Shown in pieces: positions 5,302-40,446 of a stretch of 46,353 nt of DNA. The stretch spans positions 1 through 46,353 of the forward strand of contig JAKQSZ010000048.1 of assembly GCA_029569475.1 (NCBI GenBank), given 5' to 3'. A program made the position numbers and the translations under genes. Each line of letters opens with the position of its first letter. Position 1 is the stretch's first letter. This stretch comes from Candidatus Eiseniibacteriota bacterium (GTDB lineage Bacteria > Eisenbacteria > RBG-16-71-46 > CAIMUX01). A model generated the notes under the pieces. It was given only the letters and a program-made list of their open reading frames with translations. It was not told the DNA's origin and made no database searches.

Positions 5302-6156
5302 ATGGGCAACACCGATTCGACAGGCTCGACGGGCTCGAATGGCTCGACGGGCACGGCAGGTAGGACGGGTACGGCGGGTTCATCGGGTCGCAAACCGGTG
5401 GCGACCGACGTCCTCTTCGCCTGCGAGGACCTCCGCGTGGCGGTCGAGGGCAAGGAGATCGTCAAGGGTGTGACCCTGACGATCCGGCGAGGGGAGAAGG
5501 TCGCCCTCATGGGGCCCAACGGCTCGGGGAAGAGCTCGCTGGCCAATGCCATCATGGGCCATCCCGCGTATGAGATCGTTTCGGGGCGGGTGCTGTTGGA
5601 GGGCGAGGACATCACCGCGCTGCCGCCCGACGAGAAGGCGCGGCGAGGCCTGTTCCTGGCGTTCCAATACCCCGTGGCCATCCCCGGGGTATCCGTGGCC
5701 AACTTTCTCCGGTCGGCGGTGAACGCCCGCCGCGGCAAGGAAGTGCCGATCCGGGAGTTCCGCCTCGAGCTGGTGGACGCGATGAAGTGGCTGGAGGTCG
5801 ATTCCAGCTTTGCCGGGCGGTATCTCAACGACGGGTTCTCCGGCGGCGAAAAGAAGCGGGTCGAGATCCTGCAGATGGCCATGCTCAAGCCGGTGGTGGC
5901 CCTGCTCGACGAAACCGATTCGGGACTCGACATTGACGCCCTGAAGACGGTGGCCGAGGGGGTGAACCGCGTGACCGGCGCCGACACCGGCGCGCTGGTC
6001 GTCACCCACTACCAGCGACTCCTGAACTACATCAAGCCGGACAAGGTCCACGTCCTCATGGAAGGCCGGATCGTCAAGAGCGGCGGACCGGAACTGGCGC
6101 TGGCCCTCGAGGAGCGCGGCTACGACTGGATCGAGCGCGAGCTGGTGGCCAAGTGA
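5302..6156 (+). CDS. sufC: SufC Fe-S assembly ATPase
   Basis: ABC-type ATPase of the SufBCD scaffold. Walker [10 protein letters not shown] at 71-79, Q-loop AFQYP at about 118-122, signature SGGEKKR near 180, Walker [13 protein letters not shown] near 200-210 and the switch His in VVTHY. The [12 protein letters not shown] motif and GYDWIE...AK C-terminus are SufC hallmarks. It works in the cytoplasm, driving conformational change of SufB-SufD during cluster assembly. The protein is 284 residues, longer than the usual ~250, because of a Gly/Ser/Thr extension (residues 6-29) made of 6-residue repeats. AAAGGA lies 7 bases before the ATG. Spacing to rrf2 is 48 bases, so same operon. Confidence 0.97.
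5323..5394 (+). repeat. 18-bp in-frame tandem repeat at sufC 5' end
   Basis: About four 18-base units (5323, 5341, 5359, 5377) with decreasing identity encode [18 protein letters not shown] and GSSGRK. They add a flexible N-terminal extension to SufC that its family lacks. Confidence 0.75.
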
Positions 6157-6223: not shown

Positions 6224-7669
6224 ATGTCCAACCCCGCGAAAACCGAGGCGCCGAAGCCGGACCGGCGCGACCTGAACATCCGTGACGACTACGCCACGCA
6301 GTGGGGCTTCCGCGACCCGGAGCAGTACTTCCACAAGGGCGCGAAGGGGATCAACCACGAAGTCGTGGAGATGATATCGAGGATGAAGAAGGAGCCCGAC
6401 TGGATGCGGCTCCTCCGGCACGAGGCGCTGGATGTCTTCCTGGCCAAACCGATGCCGACGTGGGGCAACACCGAACTGCTCGGCAGCATCGACTTCGACG
6501 ACATTTACTACTACATCCGGCCGGTCGAGGAGCGGGGGACGAGCTGGGACGATGTCCCCGAGTACATCAAGAAGACCTTCGACCGCCTGGGGATTCCCGA
6601 AGCCGAGCGCAAGTTCCTGGGCGGCGTCTCCGCCCAGTACGAGTCCGAGGTGGTCTACCACTCCATCCGGGAGGACCTGACCAAGCTGGGGGTCATCTTC
6701 CTGGACATGGACTCCGGGCTGCGGGAGTACCCGGAGATCGTCCGCCGGCACTTCGGCACGGTGATTCCGTCGACGGACAACAAGTTCGCCGCGCTGAACA
6801 CGGCGGTCTGGTCAGGCGGATCGTTCATCTATGTGCCGCCGGGCGTGAAGGTCGAGATTCCGCTCCAGGCCTACTTCCGCATCAACGCCGAGAACATGGG
6901 CCAGTTCGAGCGGACGCTCATCATCGCCGACAAGGGCTCACGCGTGCACTACATCGAGGGTTGCACGGCGCCGATCTACTCGACCAACTCCCTGCACTCG
7001 GCGGTGGTGGAGCTGATCGCGATGGACGAGGCCTACATCCGCTACACCACGATCCAGAACTGGGCCAACAACATCTTCAACCTCGTGACCAAGCGGGCCG
7101 TGGCGCAGCGGGGAGCGACCGTCGAGTGGGTCGACGGCAACATCGGATCCAAGCTGACCATGAAGTTCCCCTGCATCTACCTCACGGGCGAAGGAGCCAA
7201 GGGAGAGATCCTCTCGGTGGCCTTCGCCGGATCCGGACAGCACCAGGATGCCGGCGCCAAGGTCATCCACGCGGCCCCCCACACGACCTCGACGATCACC
7301 AGCAAGTCGATCTCCAAGGACGGCGGCCGCGCCTCCTATCGCGGGCTGGTCAAGGCGCATCCCAACGCGCGGGGCTGCAAGGTCAACGTCCAGTGCGACG
7401 CCCTCATCATCGGCGAGCAGGCGCGCTCGGACACCTATCCGACGATGGAGATCGATCAGGAGAACGTCCAGGTCGAGCACGAGGCCCGGGTCAGCAAGGT
7501 GGGAGATGAGCAGCTCTTCTACCTGATGAGCCGTGGGATCACGGCGGAACAGGCCAGGCTGCTGATCGTCAACGGGTTCATCGAGCCGTTCACCAAGGAG
7601 CTGCCGATGGAGTACGCGGTCGAGCTGAACCGGCTGATCGCGATGGAGATGGAAGGGAGCGTAGGGTGA
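6224..7669 (+). CDS. sufB: SufB Fe-S scaffold subunit
   Basis: 481 residues, full length for SufB. The N-terminal [17 protein letters not shown] segment, [21 protein letters not shown] and the long right-handed beta-helix are characteristic. C247 in EGCTAP and C391 in NVQCDALI match the conserved cysteines of the family; the second lies in the region holding E. coli Cys405, implicated in sulfur transfer. SDTYPTMEI and FYLMSRG.....AR.L.V.GF complete the signature. It forms the scaffold complex with SufC and SufD. GGAGAGGAG lies about 7 bases before the ATG. The stop overlaps the sufD GTG start as GTGA. Confidence 0.98.
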
Positions 7670-9075
7670 GCACGGAGATCGTGGCCGCAGCCGGACAGGC
7701 CGATCAGCAGGGGACGCAAAGCGTCGAGCTCATTTCACGCGCGCTGGCGGAACCCCCGTGGCTTCTGCAGTGGCGCCGCCGCGCCTTCGAGACCTTCCAG
7801 GCCACGGCCCTGCCCCATCGGGCGACCCACCTCTGGCGCTACACCGATCCGGCGACGTTTGAGCCGACGCCGGAGCTGTGGGCGCAGGTGACCTCCGCCG
7901 GCTCCGGACCGGGCGGCAGGGAAACGGACAAGTCGGCCTCCGGGAGCCCAGCCTCCGCCGGGCCGGCCTCGGGGAGATCGCAGGCGGAGAGGCCGGAGGC
8001 AGGCGGAGGGGACTCGCGGGGCGTCCAGCCTGTCCTGCCGGATGTCCTGCCGGAGTCGGCCCGAGCGGCCGGGCTCGTCCTGACCAGCATCGCGGAAGCC
8101 GCGCGGGAACACCCCGAGTTGCTGCGGCGGGTCCTGGGACACGCGGTGGGACCGGAGTTCGGCCGGTACGAGGCTCTCAACGCGGCGCTCTTTCAGGACG
8201 GGCTCTTCCTCTATGTGCCGCGCAATGCCCAGGTGGAAACTCCGGTTCATCTGCTCCGTGGTCCCGGAGGGTCCGTCCCCGCGGGCTCGGCTCCGCTTCC
8301 CGGCCGGGGCGCCGCGCTGGCGCGCCTGGCGGTGCTGGTGGAGGAGGGCGCTTCGCTGACCCTGATCGATGAGTGTTCGGGAGATTTCGAAGGGGGGCGG
8401 GGAACGCTTTACGGGGTGACCGAGACGGTGCTCGGCGCCGAGGCCAGGGTGAACCACGCCTTCATCCAGGACCTCGGGGAGCGGGTGCGGTCGCACATCA
8501 CCCAGCGAGCCGTTCTCGATCGTGGCGCCGTGTACCGTCCGGTGCTGGTTTCCTTCGGCGGGGGCTTGTCCAAGGTGGATGCCGGAGCCGTCCTGCAAGG
8601 ACCCGGAGCGGAGAGCGAACTCACCGGTTTCGTCTCCGGCGCCGGCCGCCAGCGCTTCGACCATCACACGGTCCACCACCATGTCGGACCGCGGACACGC
8701 AGCAACCTGGATTTCAAGACGGTGCTCGCCGGACGGGCCCGTTCGGCCTACACCGGACTGATCCGCATCGAGCCGCCGGCCAGTTTCACCGAGGCATACC
8801 AGGAGAACCGCAACCTGCTGCTCTCCGAACATTGCCGGGCCGAGTCCATTCCGGAACTGGAGATCATGACCGAGGAGGTGCAGTGCAAGCACGGGGCGAC
8901 GATCGGGCCGCTCGACCCGGCTCATCTCTTCTATCTGCAAAGCCGCTCCATCCCCCGGCCTGAAGCGGTCAGCATGATCGTGGAGGGGCACTTCGAGTCG
9001 GCCCTTCTGCGGCTGCCCGAGGCATTGCAGGAGAGACTTCGAAAGCTGTTGCGCGACCGGCTACGGTCCATCTGA
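7666..9075 (+). CDS. sufD: SufD Fe-S scaffold subunit
   Basis: SufD partner of SufB. The N-terminal helical region (W.....R..A...F.....P......WRYTD) is followed by the beta-helix core ([24 protein letters not shown]-like strand, YG..E...G..A...H....) and the SufD-type end [19 protein letters not shown]....A....EGHF. The family's conserved His lies near CKHGAT. Length is 469, over the usual ~420-440. A Gly/Ser/Pro/Glu-rich insert at about residues 77-120 separates the N-terminal domain from the core. The GTG start at 7666 overlaps the sufB stop and has GGAAGGGAG upstream. It acts in the SufBC2D complex in the cytoplasm. Confidence 0.95.
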
Positions 9076-9171
9076 GCGCGCGGCTCCCTCAGAGCGTGAG
9101 CGGCATCGCTCATGCCGGGGTGCCGCGAAGCTCCTTCGGCGGTGGCGCCCGACCTGAGCAAGGGGACATTC

Positions 9172-9489
9172 ATGAACAAGCAATTCTTGGTGGTGGCCCG
9201 GGAGGAAGAGATTCCGGAGGGTGAGGCCCGCGTCTTTGATGCCGGAGAAGAACGGGTGGTGATCTGCAAGGTCGGCGGGAAGCTCTATGCCGTGGCCGAC
9301 CTCTGCACGCACGACGACGGCCCGCTCGGCGAAGGTTACCTGGACGGGCACGAGATCGAATGCCCGCGCCACGGAGCCCGCTTCGACGTGAGATCGGGCG
9401 AGGTCCGGCGGATGCCGGCGGCGGCGCCGATCGCGACGTTCCCCCTGAAGGTGGAAGACGGCCAGGTCCTGGTGGAGGTCGAGGTTTGA
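9172..9489 (+). CDS. Rieske-type [2Fe-2S] ferredoxin in the suf operon
   Basis: 105-residue soluble Rieske protein. Cluster ligands are C45-x-H47 (CTHDDGPL) and C64-x-x-H67 (CPRHGARFD), spaced as in dioxygenase-type ferredoxins. There is no signal peptide or membrane segment, so it is a cytoplasmic electron carrier. AGGGG lies 7 bases before ATG 9172. It sits between sufD and sufS, and its stop overlaps the sufS TTG start as TTGA. Rieske-like ferredoxins are found in some SUF operons of Gram-positive and candidate-phylum bacteria. A role supplying electrons for cluster assembly is inferred from position only. An untranslated 96-base gap separates it from sufD. Confidence 0.93.
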   Translation: MNKQFLVVAREEEIPEGEARVFDAGEERVVICKVGGKLYAVADLCTHDDGPLGEGYLDGHEIECPRHGARFDVRSGEVRRMPAAAPIATFPLKVEDGQVLVEVEV

Positions 9490-10886
9490 AACCGTCCCAG
9501 ACCGCATCGGCCGGCACGAAGGCCGCTCGCGCGGTGGCCGGCCAACCTCCGTCCCCAGCCGCTGGCGCGGCGGCCGGCCAACCTCCGTCCCCAGCTGCTC
9601 CGGGCGACCCCGCACCCTCCCGCCCCGAGGCGGCCGGCACTGCGGGCGCGGCGCCGGCGGTTGAGGCGATCAACCTCGCGGCCATCCGGAAGGACTTCCC
9701 CATCCTATCCCGCAAGGTGCACGGGCGGCGCCTGGTCTATCTCGACAGCGCGGCCACCTCGCACAAGCCGCTCGTCGTCCTGGAACGGCAGGCCCACTTC
9801 TACCGCCAGTCCAACTCCAACATCCATCGCGGCATCCACCGTCTGGCCGAGGAGGCGACCTGGCTCTACGAGGCGGTGCGCGAGCAGGCGGCGCGATTCA
9901 TCGGCGCGCCCGAGCCGCGGTCGGTCGTCTTCACCCGGGGAACCACCGAGGCGATCAACCTCCTCGCCTACACCTGGGGGGACGACCTGCGGGAGGGCGA
10001 CGAGATCCTCCTCACCGAGATGGAGCACCACAGCAATCTGGTGCCGTGGTTCCTCGCGGCCAAACGCCGGGGTGCGGTTGTCCGGCACATTCCGGTGGAT
10101 GAGGAAGGCCTTCTGGATCTATCCCGGCTGGGCGAGTTGATCCACGCGCGCACGAAGATCGTCGCCTTGACCCATGTCTCCAATGTGCTGGGCACGATCA
10201 ATCCGGTGAAGGCCATTGTTGAGGCAGCCCGGACGGTGGGCGCCCGGGTGGCCGTCGACGGCGCCCAGAGCGCGCCGCATCTGCCGATCCGCGTCTCCGA
10301 GTTGGGATGCGATGCCTTCGCCTTCTCCGCCCACAAGATGCTGGGGCCGACCGGGGTCGGGATCCTGTGGGTGCGGCCCGAGATCCTGGAGCGGATGGAG
10401 CCGTTCCAGGGGGGTGGCGAGATGATCCGCGAAGTCCGGCTGGACGGCGCGACCTGGTCGGACATCCCGCACCGGTTCGAGGCCGGGACGCCCAACATCG
10501 CCGGCGTGGTCAGCTTCGGTCCCGCCATGGAGTATCTGGAACGGGTGGGGTTCGATGCCCTGCGCGCCCACGACGTCGACCTGTTGGCCTACACGATGGA
10601 ACGCTTGACCGCGCTCGGGCGCATTCGCATCCTGGGCCCTCGTGATCCGCAGGCGCGCTCCGGGTCGGTGGCTTTCACCGACGAGGAGATCCATCCGCAC
10701 GATTTGAGCACGGTGCTGGACCAGTGCGGCGTGGCCATCCGGGCGGGACACCACTGCGCCCAGCCGCTCCATCGCCGGTACGGGATCCCGGCGTCGGCGC
10801 GGGCCAGCTTCTACCTGTACAATGGCCGCGATGACATCGACGCCCTGGTCGAGGCCATCCTGGAAGCGAGGAAGTACTTTGGCTGA
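9486..10886 (+). CDS. sufS: SufS cysteine desulfurase
   Basis: PLP-dependent class II cysteine desulfurase. It mobilises sulfur from cysteine as a persulfide for the SufU/SufBCD system. Landmarks are FPIL...V.G..LVYLDSAATSHKP, TRGTTEAINLLA, EMEHHSNLVPW, the PLP lysine K284 in SAHKMLGPTG, and the persulfide cysteine C424 in RAGHHCAQPLH. The HHCAQPLH context is the SufS type. The TTG start at 9486 overlaps the Rieske stop and has GGAGG 7 bases upstream. It gives 466 residues with an Ala/Pro-rich N-terminal extension of about 55-60 residues before the family's usual start. The extension contains a perfect-looking 12-residue duplication. If the real start is further in, the extension would be untranslated, but no Shine-Dalgarno supports that. 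Confidence 0.96.
   Translation: MKPSQTASAGTKAARAVAGQPPSPAAGAAAGQPPSPAAPGDPAPSRPEAAGTAGAAPAVEAINLAAIRKDFPILSRKVHGRRLVYLDSAATSHKPLVVLERQAHFYRQSNSNIHRGIHRLAEEATWLYEAVREQAARFIGAPEPRSVVFTRGTTEAINLLAYTWGDDLREGDEILLTEMEHHSNLVPWFLAAKRRGAVVRHIPVDEEGLLDLSRLGELIHARTKIVALTHVSNVLGTINPVKAIVEAARTVGARVAVDGAQSAPHLPIRVSELGCDAFAFSAHKMLGPTGVGILWVRPEILERMEPFQGGGEMIREVRLDGATWSDIPHRFEAGTPNIAGVVSFGPAMEYLERVGFDALRAHDVDLLAYTMERLTALGRIRILGPRDPQARSGSVAFTDEEIHPHDLSTVLDQCGVAIRAGHHCAQPLHRRYGIPASARASFYLYNGRDDIDALVEAILEARKYFG
9529..9600 (+). repeat. 36-bp tandem duplication in sufS extension
   Basis: Two nearly identical 36-base units start at 9529 and 9565 (shared core GGCCGGCCAACCTCCGTCCC). In frame they encode two copies of A-A-G-Q-P-P-S-P-A-type 12-residue units. 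High identity suggests a recent event. Confidence 0.85.
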
Positions 10887-11709: not shown

Positions 11710-11816
11710 GCGGCCGATGATTTCACCCGGCGGCGCCCCGGCGCGGAGGGGCATCGTCATGCATGGACTTGGCTGGTTGTGAGTCGGGAACTGGAACCGG
11801 GATAAGGGGGACAACC

Positions 11817-12482
11817 ATGAAGACCTGGGTCGTCGCTTTGTCGTGTGTGGCCTTGCTGTTTGCCTCGGTGACGGGCTGCAGCTGGAGCAACAAGATGAAG
11901 GGCGGGACCGCCGGCGCGGTTGCGGGAGGAGCGGTGGGCGCGGCCATCGGCCATGCCGCCGGAAACACGGCTCTGGGCGCCATCCTCGGAGCGGCCGTCG
12001 GCGGCACCGCCGGCGCCCTGATCGGCCGCAATATGGACAAGCAGGCCGAGGAGATGCAGGCGGACCTGGCGGGCGCCAAGGTTGAGCGCGTGGGTGAGGG
12101 CATCAAGATCACCTTCGACTCCGGAATCCTCTTCGCGATCGACTCGTCAGAACTGCAACCAACGGCGAAAACAAACATCGAGGCATTGTCCCGCGTGCTC
12201 AACAAGTACCCGGACACCAACGTCCTGGTGGAAGGGGATACGGATGCCACGGGCAGCGAGGAGCACAACCAGAAGCTCTCGGAACGCCGGGCCCAGGCGG
12301 TGGCCGACTACCAGAAGCAGCTCGGTGTGGTTCCGTCAAGGATCACCACGATCGGCCTCGGCGAGACCAATCCGGTGGCCGACAACAACACCGAGGAAGG
12401 GCGCCGTCTGAACCGCCGCGTCGAGATCGCGATCTTTGCCAACGAGAAGATGAAGCAGGCAGCGCAGGAAGGGAAGCTGTAG
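11817..12482 (+). CDS. OmpA-family peptidoglycan-associated lipoprotein
   Basis: 221 residues. Lipoprotein signal with lipobox S-V-T-G-C21. Next comes a glycine-zipper segment (about 29-75: GGTAGAVAGGAVGAAIGHAAG and a second similar stretch) that could insert in or associate with the membrane. The C-terminal OmpA domain (about 100-213) has F.IDSSEL.P.A...I..L..VL..YP, TDATGS..HN..LSERRA.AV..Y, and the RRLNRRVEIAI end with the peptidoglycan-contacting arginine. The usual GHTD is GDTD here, so one conserved His is Asp. AGGGGG lies 7 bases before the ATG. Its likely place is anchored in the outer membrane, tethering it to peptidoglycan. It belongs to the glycine-zipper/OmpA class often called YiaD-like. 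Confidence 0.92.
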   Translation: MKTWVVALSCVALLFASVTGCSWSNKMKGGTAGAVAGGAVGAAIGHAAGNTALGAILGAAVGGTAGALIGRNMDKQAEEMQADLAGAKVERVGEGIKITFDSGILFAIDSSELQPTAKTNIEALSRVLNKYPDTNVLVEGDTDATGSEEHNQKLSERRAQAVADYQKQLGVVPSRITTIGLGETNPVADNNTEEGRRLNRRVEIAIFANEKMKQAAQEGKL

Positions 12483-28672: not shown

Positions 28673-31600
28673 ATGACCAGCCGAATCGCTTCCCTCCGCG
28701 GCTCCCTCGCGCTCTGCGCCGGGTTGAGCCTGTTGTTCTTCGCCCCGGGCCGGTCCGAGGCCGCCCTGCCGGGTCCGATGGTGGGCACGTACACGGCCGA
28801 GGCGCTGGAACGCGCCCGAGCCGGGTTGCAGGAGCTTCCCCAGGGAAGCGCCCACGCGTGGGAGGACACCGAGAAGATGGCCGAGGACCGGGCCAGCTTC
28901 GAGCGGCCTCTTCTCCTCAACAGCACCGATGACGACGCCTGCCACTACGCCCGCGGCACCACGGCCATCATCCACATCTTCGTCAACCACACCGGGGGGA
29001 CGTGGACCTCGCAGCAGCGGAACGACATGGCCGCGCGGGGACGCACGGCCAAGGACTTCTACACCGACAACGCTCCGGCAGGAGCCAACCTCCGGTTCGA
29101 CCACGAGGGATCGACCTTCTACTACTACTACGAGACCACCCTCAACCAGAACATCCCCGACAGCGGCATGAGCAGCGCCCTGATGGAGACCGTGGCCGAC
29201 GCCATCGGCTTCAGCGACAGTGACGCCGACGGCTCCATCATCGACGACTGGTCCCTCTACCTCATGAACTGGGACGGCGGCTTCGACAACGTCATCCTCT
29301 GCTTCCACCCCAAGCAGACCGGCCGGGCGTGGGCTTCCTACGGGCACGCCAAGACGGCGCTCTACTCGGACGATACCGGCAACGTCTTCGCCCACGAGTG
29401 GGGCCACCTGTTCGGCGCCTGCGACGAATACACCGAGGGGGGCGAGTGCAACGGCGGCATCGACTGCGGCAACTGCCAGAGCACCTACCTGGACGACGTG
29501 ATCATCAACGGCAACTGCCAGCTCAGCGGCTGCCCGTCGGACGTGTCCTGCGTCATGATCAACAACACGTTCAGCAACATCTGCAACTACACCCTGAACC
29601 ACTGGGGCTGGTTCGACGAAGACAACGACGGGTATCTCGATTGGACCAGGCGCCGCACCACCGGCAACAACTTCGTTGAGATCTACCTGATCCCCCACAA
29701 CGGCAACGCCCTGTGGAACAACACGACCGACGGTTATGTCATCGCCCAGCAGTGGAACACCTGGTCAGTAGCCGGCTTGCGCTCGCCGTCCGGCACGGAC
29801 TACGACCTGCAGCTCTACGGCGACAACAACCACAACTACCAGCTCGCCACCTCCAGCTACGCCGGACAGACGGTCGACTTCGTGGTCAGCGACTACAACC
29901 ACGATCGCCCCGGGAACGAGCACCTGCAGGTCAGCCTGTACTCGGGCAACGGGAGCAACAACTATCGTCTGAACTGGGAGAGCGGCACCGGCATTCTCTA
30001 TCCCGACGGCCTTGTCCGCTCGGGAACCTGGGTAGGTTACCAGGTGGTTCGCGCCTGGGACGTGCCGCTCTTCGGGGGCGAGACGGTCACTTTCTCCCTG
30101 GACGTGACTTCGGGCTCGACCGACTTCGGCATGGCCCTCTTCCGCAGCTACGGAGACGTCTACCACGTCGGCCGCTCCTATGCCCAGTGGATCCGGGACG
30201 CTGCCGGGGCCGGCGGCACGGAAACCTACTCCTATACCGTTCCCGCCGACGACGTCTACGGGTTGATCATCTTCGCCAATAACGCCGCCGACGGGGAGTT
30301 CGACATCAAGATCGGGCCGACCCCGTACACGCTCGCCGAGGAGACGCCCTTCAACTCCGGCATCGACCTGCGGCTCTACAACTACGACCCCAACGCCTTC
30401 AGCTGGTCCGTGGCCGGCGTCCGTCCGGCCAGCGGAACCAACGCCTCGATCGGGCTCTTTAGCGACCAGAGCTACCTGAACGAGCTGGCTTTCTCCGACG
30501 ACTACGCGGGCCTGGAGTTCGTGGCGGCGGACTACAACCCCAGCTACAGCACCGACTACCTGCGCGTCATCCGGGAGGCCGGGGACGGCACCCACCGCAC
30601 CGAGTGGGAGCATGACAACGATCTCCTGGAGGCTCCGTTTGCCGGCAACTGGGTGGCCACCCACGTGGCCAAGGTCTGGGACTGCAACCTGACTGGCGGG
30701 CAGCCCTACTTCTTCCGGGAGTACCACACGATCGGCGGCTCCCTGGACACGGGCATCTACCTCTTCGGTTCGGACGACGGCAACCGCTACAAGGGACGCA
30801 ACGAGTACTCCCAGGCCGCCAACTTCAGGCCGGCGAGCGACGGGGGGGAGTGGTTCTACTACACCCCGCCGCTGACCGACTGGTACGGCTTCATCCAGGT
30901 GGTCAACGATGACTCCGGCGGCGCCTACAGCGTCCACATGGGCCCCTACTACGACCTGGCCGAGGACGAGGCGGTCCGGTCGACCAACACGATGAGCTAC
31001 GCTCGAGCGGACGTGGGCACCTCCTACTGGACGATCTTCGCTTGCCGGCCGTACTTTGCCGACAATGCGACGATCACGCTGTACGGCGACAACGGGTTCA
31101 GCACGAACCAGGTGATCGCGACCGACGGGACGAACGCCCGGGTGCCGTTCCTCGTGGGCGATTTCAACCACAACTCCGCCGCGGCCTACTACCCGCGCGT
31201 CCAGCGCACCACGGGCAGCCAGGGGTATGACATCGAGTGGGAATCCGGAACGGAGTCCTTCACCTGGTCGGGCACGCCGATCGTCTCCGACCGGGACTTC
31301 CCTGTGCACGACGTGGCCGACATCTACGACCTGTACGTTCCGGCCGGCCAGCAGCTGGTGATCCGGGTGTCGGACACCAACGGCCAGGTCGACCCCGGCA
31401 TCGCGCTCTTCCGCTCCAACGGCGGCGCCTATTGGGCCAATTCCACCGGAGCGGTCGTGAGCTCGGATGCCACGGGCACCGGCGGTTCCGAGGAAGTCAC
31501 CTATACCTTCCCGGCGTCGGACTGGTACGGCCTGGTCGTCTGGTCGAAGGACGATGTTGACTCCCCCGGCACCTACCGGATCGAGATCTTCGACCCGTCC

Positions 31601-31906
31601 AGCAGCTCGGTGGACACCGAGATCGCGGCGAGCTTCTCGCTGAGTTCTTCCTCGTCCAATCCGTTCAGCGCATCGGCCACGCTGCAGTACTCCCTGACCC
31701 GCCCGGGACGCGCCGACCTTACGATCTTCGACCCGCAGGGACGGCTGGTTCGCTCCCTCGTGTCGGGGGTGGAGCAGGCCGGGCACCACGCGGTGGTCTG
31801 GGACGGGCGTGACGAACGGGGCGAGTCGGTGGGTTCGGGCATGTACTTCGCTCGCCTGGTCACTGCGGAAGGCGAGCGGAAGATCAAGATGGTCAGATCG
31901 AACTGA
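28673..31906 (+). CDS. large secreted HEWGH metalloprotease with three repeats and FlgD-like tail
   Basis: 1077 residues. Signal peptide at 1-30. The protease domain (about 90-345) has H241-E242-W-G-H245-x2-G248-x2-D251-E (HEWGHLFGACDEY), the HExxHxxGxxD arrangement of metzincins with Asp as third ligand; HEW.H....DEY also recalls CLCA proteases. A cysteine-rich loop follows (CNGGIDCGNCQ...CPSDVSC). Three ~210-residue repeats begin near 361 (WNTWSVAGLR), 577 (FSWSVAGVR) and 784 (SYWTIFACR). Each contains a D-x-G-(M/I)-x-LF(R/G)S second module (PPC-like beta-sandwich). The FlgD-Ig-like tail (SNPFSASATLQY... WDGRDERGESVGSGMYFARL) is probably for sorting. AGGAGGTGA lies 8 bases before the ATG. 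Confidence 0.9.
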   Translation: MTSRIASLRGSLALCAGLSLLFFAPGRSEAALPGPMVGTYTAEALERARAGLQELPQGSAHAWEDTEKMAEDRASFERPLLLNSTDDDACHYARGTTAIIHIFVNHTGGTWTSQQRNDMAARGRTAKDFYTDNAPAGANLRFDHEGSTFYYYYETTLNQNIPDSGMSSALMETVADAIGFSDSDADGSIIDDWSLYLMNWDGGFDNVILCFHPKQTGRAWASYGHAKTALYSDDTGNVFAHEWGHLFGACDEYTEGGECNGGIDCGNCQSTYLDDVIINGNCQLSGCPSDVSCVMINNTFSNICNYTLNHWGWFDEDNDGYLDWTRRRTTGNNFVEIYLIPHNGNALWNNTTDGYVIAQQWNTWSVAGLRSPSGTDYDLQLYGDNNHNYQLATSSYAGQTVDFVVSDYNHDRPGNEHLQVSLYSGNGSNNYRLNWESGTGILYPDGLVRSGTWVGYQVVRAWDVPLFGGETVTFSLDVTSGSTDFGMALFRSYGDVYHVGRSYAQWIRDAAGAGGTETYSYTVPADDVYGLIIFANNAADGEFDIKIGPTPYTLAEETPFNSGIDLRLYNYDPNAFSWSVAGVRPASGTNASIGLFSDQSYLNELAFSDDYAGLEFVAADYNPSYSTDYLRVIREAGDGTHRTEWEHDNDLLEAPFAGNWVATHVAKVWDCNLTGGQPYFFREYHTIGGSLDTGIYLFGSDDGNRYKGRNEYSQAANFRPASDGGEWFYYTPPLTDWYGFIQVVNDDSGGAYSVHMGPYYDLAEDEAVRSTNTMSYARADVGTSYWTIFACRPYFADNATITLYGDNGFSTNQVIATDGTNARVPFLVGDFNHNSAAAYYPRVQRTTGSQGYDIEWESGTESFTWSGTPIVSDRDFPVHDVADIYDLYVPAGQQLVIRVSDTNGQVDPGIALFRSNGGAYWANSTGAVVSSDATGTGGSEEVTYTFPASDWYGLVVWSKDDVDSPGTYRIEIFDPSSSSVDTEIAASFSLSSSSSNPFSASATLQYSLTRPGRADLTIFDPQGRLVRSLVSGVEQAGHHAVVWDGRDERGESVGSGMYFARLVTAEGERKIKMVRSN

Positions 31907-32195: not shown

Positions 32196-32780
32196 ATGAA
32201 CACGCTCGAGCAGACCGAGCAGGCCCGGCTTGGACTGCTGCGGGAGCGGTTCATGGAGGTGGCCCTCCGCCGCGTGCCGGCTGACGTCGCCGAGGACCTG
32301 GTCCAGGAGGCGCTCCTGGTAGTCGTCGCCCGCGGGCGCGAGGCCGGGTTCGGTCCTTCGGCAGCGAGTGCCGGGGCGGCCGGGCCCGCGGCGGCGCTGG
32401 TGACGGAGGAGGGTCAGGCGTTGCCACCACTGGCCTGGTCGTTCCAGGTGCTGCGCAACGTCATCGGCAACTGGTATCAACGACGGGAGACGCGTGAGCG
32501 CTGGATCTCATCCGCGCCCGCTCCCGAAGTCCCCGGGGCCGGCACTCCCCTCGAGGCGCTCGAGGAAAGCGATGCGCTGTCACGCCTGGAACGCGCCCTG
32601 CGGCTCCTGGCGGACAACGACCCCGCTTGCGGCCGCTACCTGCGGCGGATCGTGGAGGGCGCCGAGCCGTCCGACATCGCCCGGGAGGAGAGGGTCGACC
32701 CCGCGGCATTCTATCGGCGGCTCTATCGCTGCCGAGGGAAGCTGCGCGAGCTGCTGGAACAGGAGGGGGTCTCGGCATGA
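32196..32780 (+). CDS. ECF-like RNA polymerase sigma factor
   Basis: 194 residues. Region 2 at about 17-105 (RFMEVALRRVPADVAEDLVQEALLVVV, then LAWSFQVLRNVIGNWYQRRETR) is split by an Ala/Gly-rich insert at about 50-75. Region 4 at about 125-185 (LSRLERALRLLADNDPACGRYLRRIVEGAEPSDIAREERVDPAAFYRRLYRCRGKLRELL) has the ECF helix-turn-helix. It should direct RNA polymerase to a dedicated promoter set and be held by the anti-sigma-like protein whose ATG overlaps its stop (ATGA). ATG 32196 was chosen since the protein begins directly with region 2; GGGGAAA lies about 11 bases upstream. The frame is open further upstream without coding character. Its own promoter is not evident. Confidence 0.85.
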   Translation: MNTLEQTEQARLGLLRERFMEVALRRVPADVAEDLVQEALLVVVARGREAGFGPSAASAGAAGPAAALVTEEGQALPPLAWSFQVLRNVIGNWYQRRETRERWISSAPAPEVPGAGTPLEALEESDALSRLERALRLLADNDPACGRYLRRIVEGAEPSDIAREERVDPAAFYRRLYRCRGKLRELLEQEGVSA

Positions 32781-33643
32781 CGGGAGACGACCGGCGAGCA
32801 GACTCGGGCGATGGCCGCGGTGGAGAAGCGCCGGGTTCTGGCGACCGCATGGCCGATTACCTGGCCGGGCGGATGACTCCGGCCGAACGGGCATCGTGGG
32901 AGCAACAGATCCTGGCGGATCCAGAGCTCAGCCGTGCTCTCTATGAGGACCTGAGCGTCTCGAGGACTCTCCGGGCGGCTGCTCGCGCGCGGAGCGAAAC
33001 GGAAGCGCGGGCAGGATCGAGACCGTTGGCTGACGCGCCGGCACGGGCAGGACGGAAGCCTCTGCCCGAATCGGCGTCGCTGGCGGGTTCCCGGCAGACC
33101 GAGGACCCGCGAGACCCCACCCCGTCCGGCGCCCGATGGAACAGCGAGCCAGAGCCTCCGCGGGCAGCGCGCGAGAAGCGGTTCCGTTGGCGGGCGTTCC
33201 TTGGCCTTGGCGTGGCGGTTCCCGCGGCCGCCGCAGTACTGCTGCTCGTCGTCCCGTTCTTGTCGTCCCGGGACTCCGCCCGGCGCGCCCCCGCCTTTCG
33301 CGGCGCCGAACCGGCGGTGCGGCTGCTCATCCCGAGCCAGGAAGTCCAATCCAGCCCGTTTCGCTTCGTCTGGACGCGCGACCCTCGTGCATCCCGGTAC
33401 CGTTTTGAGCTGTACGACGAAGCGTTGCGCCGGATCTACCGCACCGTCACGGCGGATACGGCGCTCGTTCTGGCCGACTCGATCGTCGTCGAGAACGTGC
33501 CCATAGGCTCGAGTCCGCGGGCGGTGCCGTCACGGGTCTCGCCGAGCACGCCCCGAGAACGACACTGGCGCGTGTTTCCACTGACCGCGGTGGGACTCGA
33601 ACTTCCAGCTTCGGCGCCGGCGCCGTTCACGGCCTCTCCCTGA
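32777..33643 (+). CDS. anti-sigma-like single-pass membrane protein
   Basis: 288 residues. The cytoplasmic N-terminal part has MADYLAGRMTPAERASWEQQILADPELSRALYED (24-58), the helical pattern of anti-sigma-type domains (DYL.GR....R...E..L..DPEL), without a zinc motif. A disordered basic linker runs from about 70 to 135. One membrane helix lies at 139-163. The outer part (about 180-280) is a fibronectin-like beta domain (FRFVWTRDPRASRYRFELYDEALRRIYR). The start overlaps the sigma stop as ATGA, typical for a sigma/anti-sigma pair. It should sequester the sigma factor at the membrane until an outside signal or cleavage releases it. A TPR-CHAT protease gene converges on it 79 bases beyond its stop. 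Confidence 0.78.
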   Translation: MTGDDRRADSGDGRGGEAPGSGDRMADYLAGRMTPAERASWEQQILADPELSRALYEDLSVSRTLRAAARARSETEARAGSRPLADAPARAGRKPLPESASLAGSRQTEDPRDPTPSGARWNSEPEPPRAAREKRFRWRAFLGLGVAVPAAAAVLLLVVPFLSSRDSARRAPAFRGAEPAVRLLIPSQEVQSSPFRFVWTRDPRASRYRFELYDEALRRIYRTVTADTALVLADSIVVENVPIGSSPRAVPSRVSPSTPRERHWRVFPLTAVGLELPASAPAPFTASP

Positions 33644-33722
33644 TCTGCGCCTCCCGAACGTGGAGGTGTTCGAACAGCCCGCGCCGGACGGGCCCGCGAG
33701 AGCGCACCTCGGGGAGACAGCA

Positions 33723-36095
33723 TCACACGCCGTTCGCGGGAGGACGGCCCCGCCCACGGTGTCGGCGCCGGACGGAGTCGCCCAGCACGCCCAGTATGCC
33801 GAGCACGACCAGCGCGCCGAGCGCGAGCATCGCAAGCAGCGCGAGCAGCATGGAGGGGAGCCCGCGCGGCCTGCCACCTTTGGCGGACTGGCTCAGGCTC
33901 TCCACCGGAAGCTGGCCCGCGCCGCTGATCACGAAGGCCGACCGGTCACGATGCGGCGCGCCCCGACGCGCCATTGCCAGACGCGCGCGGCGCAGGGCCT
34001 CATCACGGGCGACCCCGTCGCGCAGGTGACCGTAGAAGTTCTCCATGAACACCGCCGCCGCTCGATCCTCCACCTCCCAGAGGCTCATCACCACCGACCG
34101 GGAGCCGGCGATCAGGAAGGAGCGGCCCAGTCCGATCACGCCCTCCCCCGCCATCCGATACCCCCCTCCGGTGCGGCAGCCGCTGAGCGTGACCAGGTCG
34201 GCCGACAGCCGCAGGCCCTCGATCCCAGCGGTGGCCAGCCGCCCTTCGTTTCCGGCCAGGAGCAGCGCCGAGCGCTCGGGCGTCCAAGGCGTCACTTCCG
34301 CGTGCGTGGCGAAGTGCAGGACGGCTGCGGCCGTCGTTTCCGGGGAACGCGCGCGCTCGGCGGTCGCCGCCGCTCCCACATGGAGCGTGGCGTCCGCGCG
34401 CGCGATCCTCCTTGCCTCCTCGCGCGCCCCGCTCAGCCTCGTTCGAGGGGTGCCGGTGGTGTCGGCCAGAAGTGGATCAACGAACACGATCATCCCGCGG
34501 CCGGACGCCGGCCGCGTCGCCAGATGTTCGAGAGCCGAAGCGCAGGGGAGATAACACAGCGCGAACTGGTCTCCCAGGGCGAGGTTGCCGGCGGCGTCCC
34601 ACGGGAGCGTCTCGAAGGGGAAACCGGCCAGCTCTGTCGGCGGCACGATGTAGATGCGCTCGGTTCCCGGCGGAATCCATCCGGCAATCGGCGCCAGGAG
34701 CAGCTCGCCCAACCGATGGAGTGGGTCCCGCAACGCCTTGTCGGGCGCTCCGGAAGCCATCAGGTCGATTGCGGTGCGCGCATCGCCCAGTCCCGGCGGC
34801 AGCGCTCCGAGGGGGGCCGCGCGCAGTGTGTCGGGCGTGACGAGGAACACCGCCAGGGGATCGACGACCGGGTCCGTGTACTGCAGCAGGACGGCGCGGC
34901 CCCGGTGGAGAATTAACTGGAGCGAGGCGAGGAAGGTCGCGTTTTCGCTTCCCAAGGCGCGGCGCAGGGCGGGGGCCTTGCCCGACTCGATCACGGTCCA
35001 GGCCTCCTCGATCCTCCCCGAGCCGAGCAGACAACGGCCGAGGGTTGAGTAGAGACCGCCGCCGGAGGCGGAGAGGCCCATCCGGTTGCTCTCGAGCGCC
35101 TGCTGGTCGCGAAGCCCCTCGAAACAACGCAGCGCGGCCCGAAGGAGCAGCTCCGCTTCCGCCGGCCGACCGAGCCGGAGCAGGGCCGCTCCCTCGATGT
35201 TGCGGAGCTGGCAGACCACCACCTCTTCACCGAGCGCCTCGAACCGGGGAACCAGGGATTGCACCTGCTCCCGGGCTTCGCCGTACCGCTCGAGCCGGAG
35301 GAGAATTTCCGCGCGCCGGGAGGCCAGGAGGATCTTCTCGCGCTCCCGGCCGCTTTGCTCCACCGCCGCTGTCGCTTCCTCGAGCGCTTGCAGGGTCGCG
35401 GGGATCCGGCCCGCCTCGAAGAGGAGCGCCGCCTTGCGGGAGAGCACCTTCGACAGATCGCCCAGGTCGCCAACCTCCCGAGCCACGGACTCCGCCGTCG
35501 CGGCGAAGGCCAGGCCGTCTTCAGCACGACCCAGCTCCAACAGGAGTCCCGCGATCCGGTGGTTGTCGGCCAGGACGCCGCGCGGATCACCCACCCGCTG
35601 ATTGAGAACGATCGAGGACTCGCTGGCGGCGAAGGCCTCGGGCAGGCGGCCCAGATGCAGGTAGGTGTTGGCCAGGTTTCCCCAAACCCTGGCCTGGGCC
35701 GCGAGGTCGCCACGTGCTCGATGCACCGGGAGCAGGTCGGCGAAGAGACGCGTGGCCTCCTCGTAGCGCGCGCCGGCCACGAGCAGGATCCCCAGTTGGT
35801 TGCGGATGGCCGCGACCTGCCGGACGTTGCCGTGGCGGTCTGCGATCGGAAGCGCCTGCTCGAGGTCGAGGCGGGCACTGTCATGACGGGCCTGGTTGAA
35901 GTGCGCGTGGGCGGAGCGCCGCAGGCGCTCCACCTCGAGGCTGTCGGCCGTGAAGTCCGCCTGGTCACGGCCCGACCCGGCCGCGAGCGGACCGGCACGA
36001 CCGGGAAGGGCCGGTGTCACCGGAAAGCCCATTGCCAGCAGCACGGCTGTGGTCCACAGCCGGTGGCCTCGCGAGAAAGGAAGCAAACGCGGCAT
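33723..36095 (-). CDS. TPR-CHAT caspase-like protease, secreted and membrane-anchored
   Basis: 790 residues. The N-terminus has a signal-like segment (RLWTTAVLLAMGFPVTPALPG). About nine TPR-like helical repeats run from about 45 to 390 (RNQLGILLVAGARYEEATRLF, GNLANTYLHLGRLPEAFAASE). The CHAT domain occupies about 430-730, with catalytic H598 (LHFATH) and C640 (LSGCRTGGG), and SLWEVED, LRRARLAM. A C-terminal membrane helix lies near 748-772, with a short Arg-rich tail. CHAT proteins are clan CD cysteine proteases related to caspases and separase. Signal plus C-terminal anchor place the TPR and CHAT parts outside the cytoplasm with a cytoplasmic tail. The ATG at 36095 follows GGAGGAG with short spacing; TTG 36086 is an alternative. 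It is convergent with a sigma/anti-sigma pair. Confidence 0.9.
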   Translation of the reverse strand: MPRLLPFSRGHRLWTTAVLLAMGFPVTPALPGRAGPLAAGSGRDQADFTADSLEVERLRRSAHAHFNQARHDSARLDLEQALPIADRHGNVRQVAAIRNQLGILLVAGARYEEATRLFADLLPVHRARGDLAAQARVWGNLANTYLHLGRLPEAFAASESSIVLNQRVGDPRGVLADNHRIAGLLLELGRAEDGLAFAATAESVAREVGDLGDLSKVLSRKAALLFEAGRIPATLQALEEATAAVEQSGREREKILLASRRAEILLRLERYGEAREQVQSLVPRFEALGEEVVVCQLRNIEGAALLRLGRPAEAELLLRAALRCFEGLRDQQALESNRMGLSASGGGLYSTLGRCLLGSGRIEEAWTVIESGKAPALRRALGSENATFLASLQLILHRGRAVLLQYTDPVVDPLAVFLVTPDTLRAAPLGALPPGLGDARTAIDLMASGAPDKALRDPLHRLGELLLAPIAGWIPPGTERIYIVPPTELAGFPFETLPWDAAGNLALGDQFALCYLPCASALEHLATRPASGRGMIVFVDPLLADTTGTPRTRLSGAREEARRIARADATLHVGAAATAERARSPETTAAAVLHFATHAEVTPWTPERSALLLAGNEGRLATAGIEGLRLSADLVTLSGCRTGGGYRMAGEGVIGLGRSFLIAGSRSVVMSLWEVEDRAAAVFMENFYGHLRDGVARDEALRRARLAMARRGAPHRDRSAFVISGAGQLPVESLSQSAKGGRPRGLPSMLLALLAMLALGALVVLGILGVLGDSVRRRHRGRGRPPANGV

Positions 36096-38871: not shown

Positions 38872-40446
38872 TCACCGCAGGACGGCCACGCGACTCGAGG
38901 ACGTGTAACGGTCGGTTCGCATGATGATGGAGTAGACTCCGGCCGGGACCGGCTCCGAGTCGGCTCCGGCAAGATCCCAGGTTGCGCTGTAGTGCCCGGG
39001 GCCGGTCCATCCTCCCTCGAGGCGGCGGAGGCGCCGTCCGGCGGCGTCGCAGACCGAGACCTCGAGGACCGCCACCCCGGGTTCGACTTCGTGGGAGATC
39101 CGAACGAGGCCGGACGCCGGATTCGGCGCGCACCGGACGACGGGGACCTTGCGTGCGGCCGGCGGATTGGCCCGCGTGGGGAGCGGCGAAGCGCCGATGC
39201 CCGCCGGGCACTCGAAACCATGCCGGATCGCGGCCTGGCAGATCTCGCCGTAGTGCGGGGTGCCGTTGCCGAGGTCGCCATCGTCATCGTCCTGCAGGAA
39301 GGCCGCCAGGACCTGTTCCGGCATCGTCAGGGGGAGAAAGTGGCGGCGGCTCAGGTGCCAGAGACGCCAGGCGGTCGCCGCCCCATCCTCGGAGCCAAGG
39401 CTGGCGATCAGCGCCTCGCGGACGTCCCACCAGAAGCCGGAGATGATGAGACCGCTTTCGAAGGGCTGCCCCGGAACGTAGTCCTCCGGCCACCTCTTCA
39501 CCTCCCGCAGGTCGCGGAGCCCTCGATCGCAATCGCCGAGGAAGAAGCCCTCCGCGATGATCGGGTCGTTTCCGAGGAAAGCCGCGGCCACGTCCGCCGC
39601 GCCCGTGGCGACATCGACCGGGTGGCTGCCATAGATCCACTCCGTGAGCGCGTGCGCGTACTCGTGGTAGATCGCGTCACCGAGTCTGGCGATGTTGGCG
39701 CATCCGTTGCCGGCTCGCCCCAGGAGGATGCCGGTGCCATTCCAGCTGGCTCCGCAGGTGAACGGGGCGTTGATCGTGACCGGCATCGGATGGTCGGGGG
39801 GCGACCACTGCGGATCGCAGGCCTTGACGGCGTCGTGGATCCGGTTGACGTGCAGGTAGGCGTCGCGCTCCTCATCGGGAGCATGCTCGTCGGTCCAGCG
39901 CAACTCCAGTGGAATGCCGGGGGTTGCGATCCCGCTGAGCGTGGGATCGTCTCCGAGCAGGTTGGTGATCTCCACCCAGCGGCCATCCAACCCGGTGGTT
40001 ACAACGACCGGATCGCTGCCGTCGTACGGAAGGTTGAACTCGCCCTGATCATCCGAGAAGCCCGTCTCTCCTCCGGAAAGGCGGACCTGCGCATGAGGCA
40101 GGATCCGGTACTGCTCGCCGTCGCAGTAGCCATGGTCCTCGACGTCCGCCGTGGTTCTCCCGACAATCTCGCCGGCCAGGGCCGGCGGCGCCACGCTCAG
40201 CAGCAGCATCTGACCGCAGGTCAAGAGGACGGTTCTCGTCAGGACGGAGCTCGCGAGTCGGTTTCTCCGATGAAACGCACCAAGCCTGGTCCGCGCTCGG
40301 AGAGGTTGGACCGGACGCGAGGAATCGACGATCTGCCGGCGAACCTCCTGCCGGGATGAAGCAGACGGCCGCGAGCCGGTTGCGTGCACGGGTCCCGGAG
40401 ACTCTGCACTCCGAAGGACGTGCGGCATCGTCAGGTGCGTCGTCAT
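38872..40446 (-). CDS. secreted HEYAH gluzincin-like metallopeptidase with FlgD-like tail
   Basis: 524 residues. The zinc motif is H261-E-Y-A-H265 (IYHEYAHALTEWIYG), followed about 35 residues later by IIAEGFFLGDC with E299 as likely third ligand, similar to M36-type (fungalysin-like) peptidases. Before it is a carboxypeptidase-regulatory-like beta domain (about 93-175: HAQVRLSGGETGFSDDQGEFNLPY). The C-terminus is FlgD-Ig-like (VRCAPNPASGLVRISHEV... VCDAAGRRLRRLEGG....WDLAG....PAGVYSI). The signal hydrophobic core is at about 66-92, preceded by an unusual 65-residue Arg/Ser-rich stretch, although ATG 40446 has a good GGAGG 8 bases upstream. Either this is a very long signal or translation starts further in. 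Confidence 0.83.
   Translation of the reverse strand: MTTHLTMPHVLRSAESPGPVHATGSRPSASSRQEVRRQIVDSSRPVQPLRARTRLGAFHRRNRLASSVLTRTVLLTCGQMLLLSVAPPALAGEIVGRTTADVEDHGYCDGEQYRILPHAQVRLSGGETGFSDDQGEFNLPYDGSDPVVVTTGLDGRWVEITNLLGDDPTLSGIATPGIPLELRWTDEHAPDEERDAYLHVNRIHDAVKACDPQWSPPDHPMPVTINAPFTCGASWNGTGILLGRAGNGCANIARLGDAIYHEYAHALTEWIYGSHPVDVATGAADVAAAFLGNDPIIAEGFFLGDCDRGLRDLREVKRWPEDYVPGQPFESGLIISGFWWDVREALIASLGSEDGAATAWRLWHLSRRHFLPLTMPEQVLAAFLQDDDDGDLGNGTPHYGEICQAAIRHGFECPAGIGASPLPTRANPPAARKVPVVRCAPNPASGLVRISHEVEPGVAVLEVSVCDAAGRRLRRLEGGWTGPGHYSATWDLAGADSEPVPAGVYSIIMRTDRYTSSSRVAVLR

Follow-up and report, generated by a model that had tools for sequence, protein, structure and literature searches.

The window analysed here comprises positions 1 to 46,353 of contig JAKQSZ010000048.1 (assembly GCA_029569475.1) of a Candidatus Eiseniibacteriota bacterium, 46,353 nt in all. 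It carries a module of three genes, which encode an extracytoplasmic function (ECF) type sigma factor, a putative single-pass anti-sigma protein, and a protein that joins tetratricopeptide repeats (TPR) to a CHAT protease domain (Table 1). The anti-sigma start overlaps the sigma end as ATGA (32777 versus 32780), and a gap of 79 bp separates the anti-sigma gene from the convergent TPR-CHAT gene. Both coordinates and sequence bear out this layout, along with the CHAT residues His598 and Cys640, as a first-pass annotation of the window had described it. We found strong support for a linkage between this sigma family and CHAT genes. With odds that we judge to be close to even, the module may be an ECF sigma/single-pass anti-sigma pair served by a TPR-CHAT protease of its own that acts outside the cytoplasm and would cut the anti-sigma protein as a site-1 protease.

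Table 1 Features of the sigma, anti-sigma and TPR-CHAT module (positions in the window)
Feature	Position	Strand	Basis
ECF-type sigma factor, 194 aa	32196..32780	+	Family searches; profile match to SigL, E 8e-8
Putative single-pass anti-sigma protein, 288 aa	32777..33643	+	ATGA overlap with sigma; one transmembrane helix
Probable cytoplasmic anti-sigma domain, residues 21-80, helical, zinc-less zf-HC2 relative	32837..33016	+	AlphaFold block, pLDDT 80-97; hhalign
Anti-sigma transmembrane helix, residues 141-159, R/K-rich segment before it	33197..33253	+	Hydropathy 2.6
Juxtamembrane Phe174-Arg175-Gly176, candidate CHAT cleavage site	33296..33304	+	End of low-confidence linker
Fn3-like ectodomain, residues 179-288	33311..33640	+	Predicted structure
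TPR-CHAT protein, 790 aa, convergent with the sigma/anti-sigma pair	33723..36095	-	Pfam; model
Possible signal peptide, residues 1-32	36000..36095	-	Charged start and moderate hydrophobic stretch; clearer in relatives
TPR superhelix, residues 50-380	34956..35948	-	Helix pairs in model; Pfam TPR
CHAT (separase-like) domain, residues 457-714	33954..34727	-	Pfam match
Catalytic His598	34302..34304	-	Alignment
Catalytic Cys640	34176..34178	-	Alignment
Asp677 in LWEVED, candidate counterpart of the invariant separase aspartate (unaligned)	34065..34067	-	
C-terminal transmembrane helix, residues 750-768, positive tail	33792..33848	-	Sequence features

The sigma factor of the window is divergent, and its single-sequence matches to Pfam and TIGR/NCBIfam models were all below threshold. 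The profile of its family matched SigL (Table 1) and SigH (E 1.5e-6 and 1.2e-5), which identifies it as an ECF-type sigma factor. A Pfam scan of the anti-sigma protein returned no match. Its N-terminal domain aligned to the profile of a sister anti-sigma family with an hhalign probability of 96.8 (E 2e-10); in that sister family zf-HC2 was matched by 16 of 19 members, and the family profile matched PDB chain 3hug_B (E 3e-7), which we take to be RslA, the partner of SigL. Thus, the sigma profile and the sister anti-sigma profile both point to one known kind of pair. Taken together, the hhalign match, the ATGA overlap and the single transmembrane (TM) helix place an N-terminal anti-sigma domain on a membrane protein coupled to the sigma gene, and this protein probably holds the sigma factor back. 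Outside the membrane, its linker (residues 163-176) was modelled with a predicted local distance difference test (pLDDT) score below 50 and leads into the Fn3-like domain.

Linkage of CHAT genes to the sigma family

The sigma family is tight and was seen in metagenome-assembled genomes (MAGs) of Eisenbacteria or Krumholzibacteriota type. A protein search with the window sigma factor listed 88 proteins, its own counted. In GTDB 220, scanned with one genome for each species, there were 30 sigma loci, 28 of them close, among whose labels were 15 of Eisenbacteria or Krumholzibacteri- and one of Gemmatimonadales. Two whole-genome searches within Eisenbacteria and Krumholzibacteriota returned sigma matches (E <= 1e-8) in 11 of 47 and 32 of 80 genomes. 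Four more close loci were taken from these searches, so that the family set holds 33 close loci including the window. Start codons and anti-sigma open reading frames (ORFs) were picked by custom scripts, with no gene caller. Searches found no nucleotide relatives in plasmids or phages and no sigma relatives in viral contigs.

At the close loci, an anti-sigma-like ORF with a TM segment comes next after the sigma gene, either overlapping it or lying beside it. The exceptions are L012 and L022, which are cut before a TM segment becomes visible, L006, which has a second hydrophobic segment, and L017, whose start could not be settled. A CHAT gene directly adjoins the sigma/anti-sigma pair in 24 of the 33 loci (window included), and in three others (L011, L016 and L018) the contig end cuts a gene that shares 41-66% identity with the linked CHATs over their TPR part. 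Leaving aside L002 and L012, whose contigs end too early for a call, a CHAT gene was present in 27 of the 31 informative loci, in truncated form in three of the 27. The linkage is thus conserved across related genomes, and the idea of the first-pass annotation, which had named a lack of such conservation as refuting it, survived this check; a chance neighbourhood was rejected on these counts. No CHAT gene was seen in the fetched flanks of L001, L003, L004 and L019, the last of which ends 0.6 kb beyond the anti-sigma gene. In the place taken by CHAT at other loci, L019 has a second, divergent sigma-like gene (9014-9931, E 2e-5) next to the family sigma gene, with a 318-aa ORF of its own following it. 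Among the distant relatives that were fetched (L080-L095), 4 of 16 have a CHAT gene.

The adjacency is retained over diverged loci in three orientations: convergent only in the window, in the same direction in seven clade-A loci, and divergent wherever CHAT occurs in clade B (16 loci). These clades come from trees of 39 CHAT domains and 48 sigma factors, both of which contain clades A, B and C (support 0.999, 1.0, 0.998 and 0.986, 0.927, 0.884) as well as further matching groups, such as L098 with L123. Shared descent by itself would produce some agreement between the trees. Among the sigma factors, clades A and B are sister groups, but among the CHAT domains they are not in this tree, which hints at partner exchange. 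Genome G005 holds a clade-A module (L006) together with a clade-B module (L024); the CHAT of L024 is outside the tree and carries the clade-B signature Gly677. The outer part of the clade-B anti-sigma (A3) bears TPR repeats, while its clade-A counterpart is Fn3-like. Clade-B loci also have a third ORF of about 240 aa after the anti-sigma gene, often with an N-terminal hydrophobic segment (e.g., L024:11299-12021 and L028:11355-12086); Pfam was blank for the two that were scanned, and NCBIfam for the one from L024.

The TPR-CHAT protein and its known relatives

Pfam PF12770 matched the CHAT domain of the window at E 2e-51 (175.6 bits, cut-off 24), and TPR repeats were matched as well. All 29 linked CHATs that were aligned have the His598/Cys640 dyad, and E560, H594, H598, C640 and G664 are invariant across 57 diverse CHAT sequences. 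The model of the protein (pLDDT 90) displayed a separase-like fold, with DdvA, Csx29 and separase as the nearest structures. DdvA was the top Foldseek match (E 1.2e-15, TM score 0.56); despite this first place, it was missing from the 50 VIA-align matches listed. A sequence search of the PDB with the CHAT half alone gave no match, whereas the family profile did match DdvA. NCBIfam and PADLOC scans of the window CHAT returned just TPR-driven or weak matches.

Sequence features favour an extracytoplasmic CHAT domain, as the first-pass annotation had placed it. A signal peptide was flagged in 18 of 24 family CHATs and in 46 of 60 other CHATs, and within the clade of the window 6 of 8 CHATs have a C-terminal TM segment. 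The window protein falls outside those 18. Asp677 may be the counterpart of the invariant aspartate of separase, a eukaryotic protease that cleaves cohesin; no alignment of the two residues was obtained. The separase residue is given as Asp2151/Asp2070 in the available text of PMC10317155.

The DdvS/DdvA system of Myxococcus xanthus (PDB 8rot, 8rw5) likewise has a transmembrane ECF anti-sigma factor with TPR-CHAT, and the counterparts of His598 and Cys640 are kept in the aligned stretch of DdvA. In DdvA, CHAT lies inside a 991-aa anti-sigma chain, whereas the window has two separate convergent genes. According to the available text on this system, DdvS is active once DdvA is inactivated, by a signal described there as unknown (PMC4374960). 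For the group ECF54, CHAT-domain proteins have been described in a conserved genomic context and proteolysis has been proposed (PMC8999054, available text). We compared this group by description only; it is discussed there as having no anti-sigma factor, in contrast to the window family with its anti-sigma-like ORF after the sigma gene. Given DdvA and ECF54 as precedents, the earlier remark that no description of this arrangement was known proves too strong. No description of a separate exported CHAT protein with a sigma/anti-sigma pair was found in the accessible parts of open-licence full texts, which is weak evidence of novelty since the literature search was confined to such papers.

DdvA also bears on the alternative that CHAT, perhaps like the TPR-CHAT part of DdvA, is a non-proteolytic sensor that binds the anti-sigma ectodomain and relays a ligand signal through a change of conformation. 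This would agree with a best Foldseek match that is itself an anti-sigma factor with TPR-CHAT within the inhibitor chain, with an ectodomain type that tracks the CHAT clade (Fn3-like in A, TPR in B), and with the loss of Asp677 in clade B. We nevertheless regard a sensor as rather unlikely, because a pure binder would have no need of a His and a Cys that are invariant over 57 diverse sequences, and it would give the arginine motif of the anti-sigma linker (see below) no role.

The type III-E Craspase (Csx29 TPR-CHAT, Csx30 and CASP-sigma) is RNA-guided through Cas7-11, and its Csx30 is handled as a soluble protein. Cleavage of Csx30 by Csx29 relieves the inhibition of CASP-sigma (PMC10028731, available text). 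In the window, the inhibitor instead spans the membrane with one strong TM helix, and CHAT looks exported. Neither Cas7-11/gRAMP nor a CRISPR array was found in the 46-kb window, where 15 ORFs were scanned with PADLOC and repeats were sought. With no cas match among these ORFs and no spaced-repeat array, a CRISPR-associated system was rejected for the window.

An arginine motif in the anti-sigma linker

Just outside the membrane, an arginine is kept in the anti-sigma proteins of clade A (15 sequences) and of clade B with two clade-C members (19 sequences). It mostly stands between a hydrophobic residue and a small one, reading FRG, LRG, LRS, MRG and MRS in clade A, and VRA, VRG, LRG and similar in clade B. 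The instance of the window is Arg175 in PAFRGAEP, and comparable stretches occur in other CHAT-linked anti-sigmas (TLRGGG in L128, RLRGEP in L134, VLRGGD in L147 and TMRGGP in L149). Arginine is the P1 residue in substrates of separase, gingipain R and MALT1 (PMC4626109, available text). We treat the juxtamembrane motif as a lead and a possible cleavage site.

The motif was counted in the first 40 residues past the TM segment. ORFs were excluded before counting if they fell outside 150-350 aa, had more than two TM segments, had no TM segment between residues 45 and 180, or had too short a tail, which left 29 family sequences (with or without CHAT nearby), 24 other linked sequences and 38 controls. 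The pattern [LMFIVT]R[GSAD] occurred in 28 of 29 family, 19 of 24 other linked and 13 of 38 control sequences (Fisher p 7e-4, other linked versus control). After clustering at 30% identity and 60% coverage it was present in 13 of 16 linked versus 8 of 20 control clusters, and in 5 of 6 versus 4 of 13 when clusters were drawn by BLAST at E 1e-4. Variants of the pattern were also counted in linked versus control sequences: [LMFIV]R[GSAD] gave 16/24 versus 11/38 (p 4.5e-3), [LMFIVT]R[GSA] 16/24 versus 10/38 (p 3.2e-3), and R[GSA] 21/24 versus 22/38 (p 0.022). The reversed version and those with Lys, Gln, Asp or Pro displayed no significant difference between linked and control sequences, while the Glu version did so at p 0.026 (12/24 versus 8/38). 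This 40-residue split without family mixing replaced a first test over 50 residues with family members in both groups, in which 37 of 46 linked and 20 of 44 unlinked sequences matched (p 9e-4; for [LMFIV]RG only, 15/46 versus 8/44, p 0.15). De novo motif finding in the 24 other linked sequences recovered a V/T-L-R-G-like motif, with a likelihood ratio of 51.5 versus 39.2 in shuffled sequences (standard deviation, sd, 3.2); the controls were near null (48.6 versus 45.1, sd 2.6).

In DegS/RseA and RsiW signalling, a site-1 protease cuts a single-pass anti-sigma factor on its outer side, and a site-2 protease then follows. Based on the features above, we propose that an analogous relay may operate here. 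The CHAT protein would be exported and stay anchored in the membrane through its C-terminal helix, and its TPR arm would sense an envelope signal or the anti-sigma ectodomain. Once activated, CHAT would cut the flexible anti-sigma linker, most likely after Arg175 (FR|G), as the site-1 cleavage; a resident M50 site-2 protease would then cut within the membrane, and the sigma factor would be freed. M50 proteases were present in 10 of 10 genomes searched. In place of DegS or PrsW, site-1 cleavage in the window would fall to a CHAT/separase-type cysteine protease of clan CD. This mechanism is plausible, and about half of our confidence lies with it.

Several observations weigh against such cleavage. 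The signal peptide of the window CHAT is only moderate, and the convergent genes of the window do not form one operon. All 16 clade-B CHATs have Gly at 677 even though their anti-sigmas retain the Arg, and M50 proteases are equally present in control genomes (14/14). As for the motif, it was initially spotted by eye, a blind search on the family set picked other, domain-borne motifs, and the best p value in a scan of 720 patterns (3.6e-4, for hydrophobic-Arg-any) fails multiple-testing correction. Nor do the 24 other anti-sigmas all count as independent cases, since BLAST at E 1e-4 groups them into six clusters. FRG is retained in the anti-sigmas of L001, L003 and L004, although no CHAT gene was detected in their flanks, which reach at most 10 kb. 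Csx29 requires no particular residue of Csx30, which it cuts between residues 427 and 429, according to the available text of PMC10028731. Finally, some CHAT-linked modules carry a Ser/Thr kinase as the membrane partner, with no anti-sigma protein. One motif-bearing control (L210) has a CHAT reading frame about 6 kb off on the same contig.

If the proposal is true, proteases of the caspase/separase type outside the bacterial inner membrane relay signals to transcription with no CRISPR involved, and follow a simple cleavage rule, an Arg in the outer anti-sigma linker. It would also hint at the origin of the Craspase switch and at the purpose of the TPR-CHAT part of DdvA, and dozens of sigma/CHAT pairs from uncultured phyla would become directly assayable in E. 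coli.

Pairing beyond the family and other genes of the window

The 23 genomes first searched held 142 CHAT matches, about one per 0.7 Mb. From CHAT genes not linked to the family, a wider set took the 60 best by E-value out of about 120, and an ECF-type sigma gene was found within 1.5 kb of 30 of these 60 and within 2.5 kb of 37. The expected share within 1.5 kb is 1.8% from a background of 336 Sigma70_r2 matches in 65.1 Mb (14 of the relatives' genomes), 3.6% if half were missed, and 6.7% for the highest of the densities tried. As the CHATs are relatives of one another, binomial p values make the excess look stronger than it is. The sigma profile for the 60 loci was iterated on these same loci, and ten of its sigma matches were checked with NCBIfam: all ten CHAT-linked proteins matched sigma models, eight of them above the TIGR02937 cut-off. 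A CHAT-linked sigma factor (L151:5487-6014) weakly matched NF041236, the type III-E CRISPR-associated sigma model, at E 1.5e-4, far below cut-off.

A single-pass ORF of 150-350 aa lies downstream of the sigma gene in 21 of the 37 CHAT-linked loci. In six, the next gene encodes 531-594 aa instead, and the remaining loci have no such ORF or end early. Three of the six large genes were scanned, and all encode Ser/Thr kinases with DUF4384 (L104:6205-7860, L126:6227-7915 and L138:1767-3548); by size alone, L121, L129 and L155 are probable kinase-type modules. The anti-sigma-like protein of L130 has DUF4384 as well, and outer domains seem common to kinase and anti-sigma modules. The existence of kinase-type modules argues for a broader role of CHAT, in which it acts on membrane signalling proteins in general or together with them, and so cleavage of the anti-sigma protein, as put forward in the first-pass annotation, may not be the whole story.

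Pairing with kinase modules is also in line with another explanation, namely that CHAT does not activate the switch but is itself made as part of the sigma regulon, as an effector protease acting on other targets in the envelope. In clade B, where sigma and CHAT genes are divergent, a promoter-like TGCCAT-N14-18-ATGAT lies upstream of the sigma genes (19 loci; likelihood ratio 59.3 versus 23.1 in shuffled sequences, sd 2.9), which could partly reflect plain homology. This support comes from sigma upstream regions only, to which the promoter search was limited, and those of clade A displayed no promoter-type motif, just a GGAGAT motif resembling a ribosome site. Moreover, a regulon output leaves the linker motif and the matching clades unexplained, and we consider it unlikely.

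None of 60 high-scoring canonical ECF loci had a CHAT gene in the fetched flanks. A universal ECF rule was thereby rejected, and the pairing instead marks particular sigma subfamilies. Such specificity speaks against the idea that both genes merely share an envelope or defence cluster as neighbours with no direct functional contact, and so do the direct adjacency kept across diverged loci in three orientations and the lack of cas matches and spaced repeats noted above. DdvS controls a defence island in M. xanthus (PMC12288465, available text). The window CHAT has one weak PADLOC match (BovA, E 5e-4), and two window ORFs distant from the module match the PADLOC models mad3 and ZorB/MotB. These points favour a shared cluster, an explanation that we hold to be very improbable.

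Extending the site-1 proposal beyond the window, exported separase-like TPR-CHAT proteases could form a general site-1 class for ECF signalling in Eisenbacteria and Krumholzibacteriota, in which several distinct sigma/anti-sigma subfamilies have a CHAT of their own and the anti-sigmas share a hydrophobic-Arg|Gly/Ser/Ala juxtamembrane cleavage motif, with Craspase and DdvA as two offshoots. We advance this generalization tentatively and with somewhat less than even confidence.

In other groups, a sigma gene was present at 3 of 30 CHAT loci of Planctomycetota, which extend about 1.5 kb past the domain, and within 6 kb at none of four CHAT loci from plasmid records of other phyla. The sole CHAT match of a planctomycete MAG (L156) is convergent to a sigma gene about 0.7 kb off, an orientation like that of the window. 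Single genomes can hold large CHAT expansions, with 32 matches listed for G002 and at least 33 each for G147 and G188.

Two large ORFs lie near the module in the window. The first (28673-31906) has a C-terminal FlgD-Ig domain and sub-threshold reprolysin matches, and the second (38872-40446) has a sub-threshold C-terminal FlgD-Ig match, pointing to a possible envelope or secretion context. The PADLOC matches mentioned above, mad3 at 5302-6153 (E 3e-22) and ZorB/MotB at 11763-12479 (E 1e-14), may be defence genes or general relatives. Finally, SufB/SufD-type and class-V aminotransferase genes stand in a row at 6224-10886, resembling a SUF iron-sulfur cluster operon, and two tandem 36-nt copies, 94% identical, lie inside the aminotransferase reading frame at 9522-9593.

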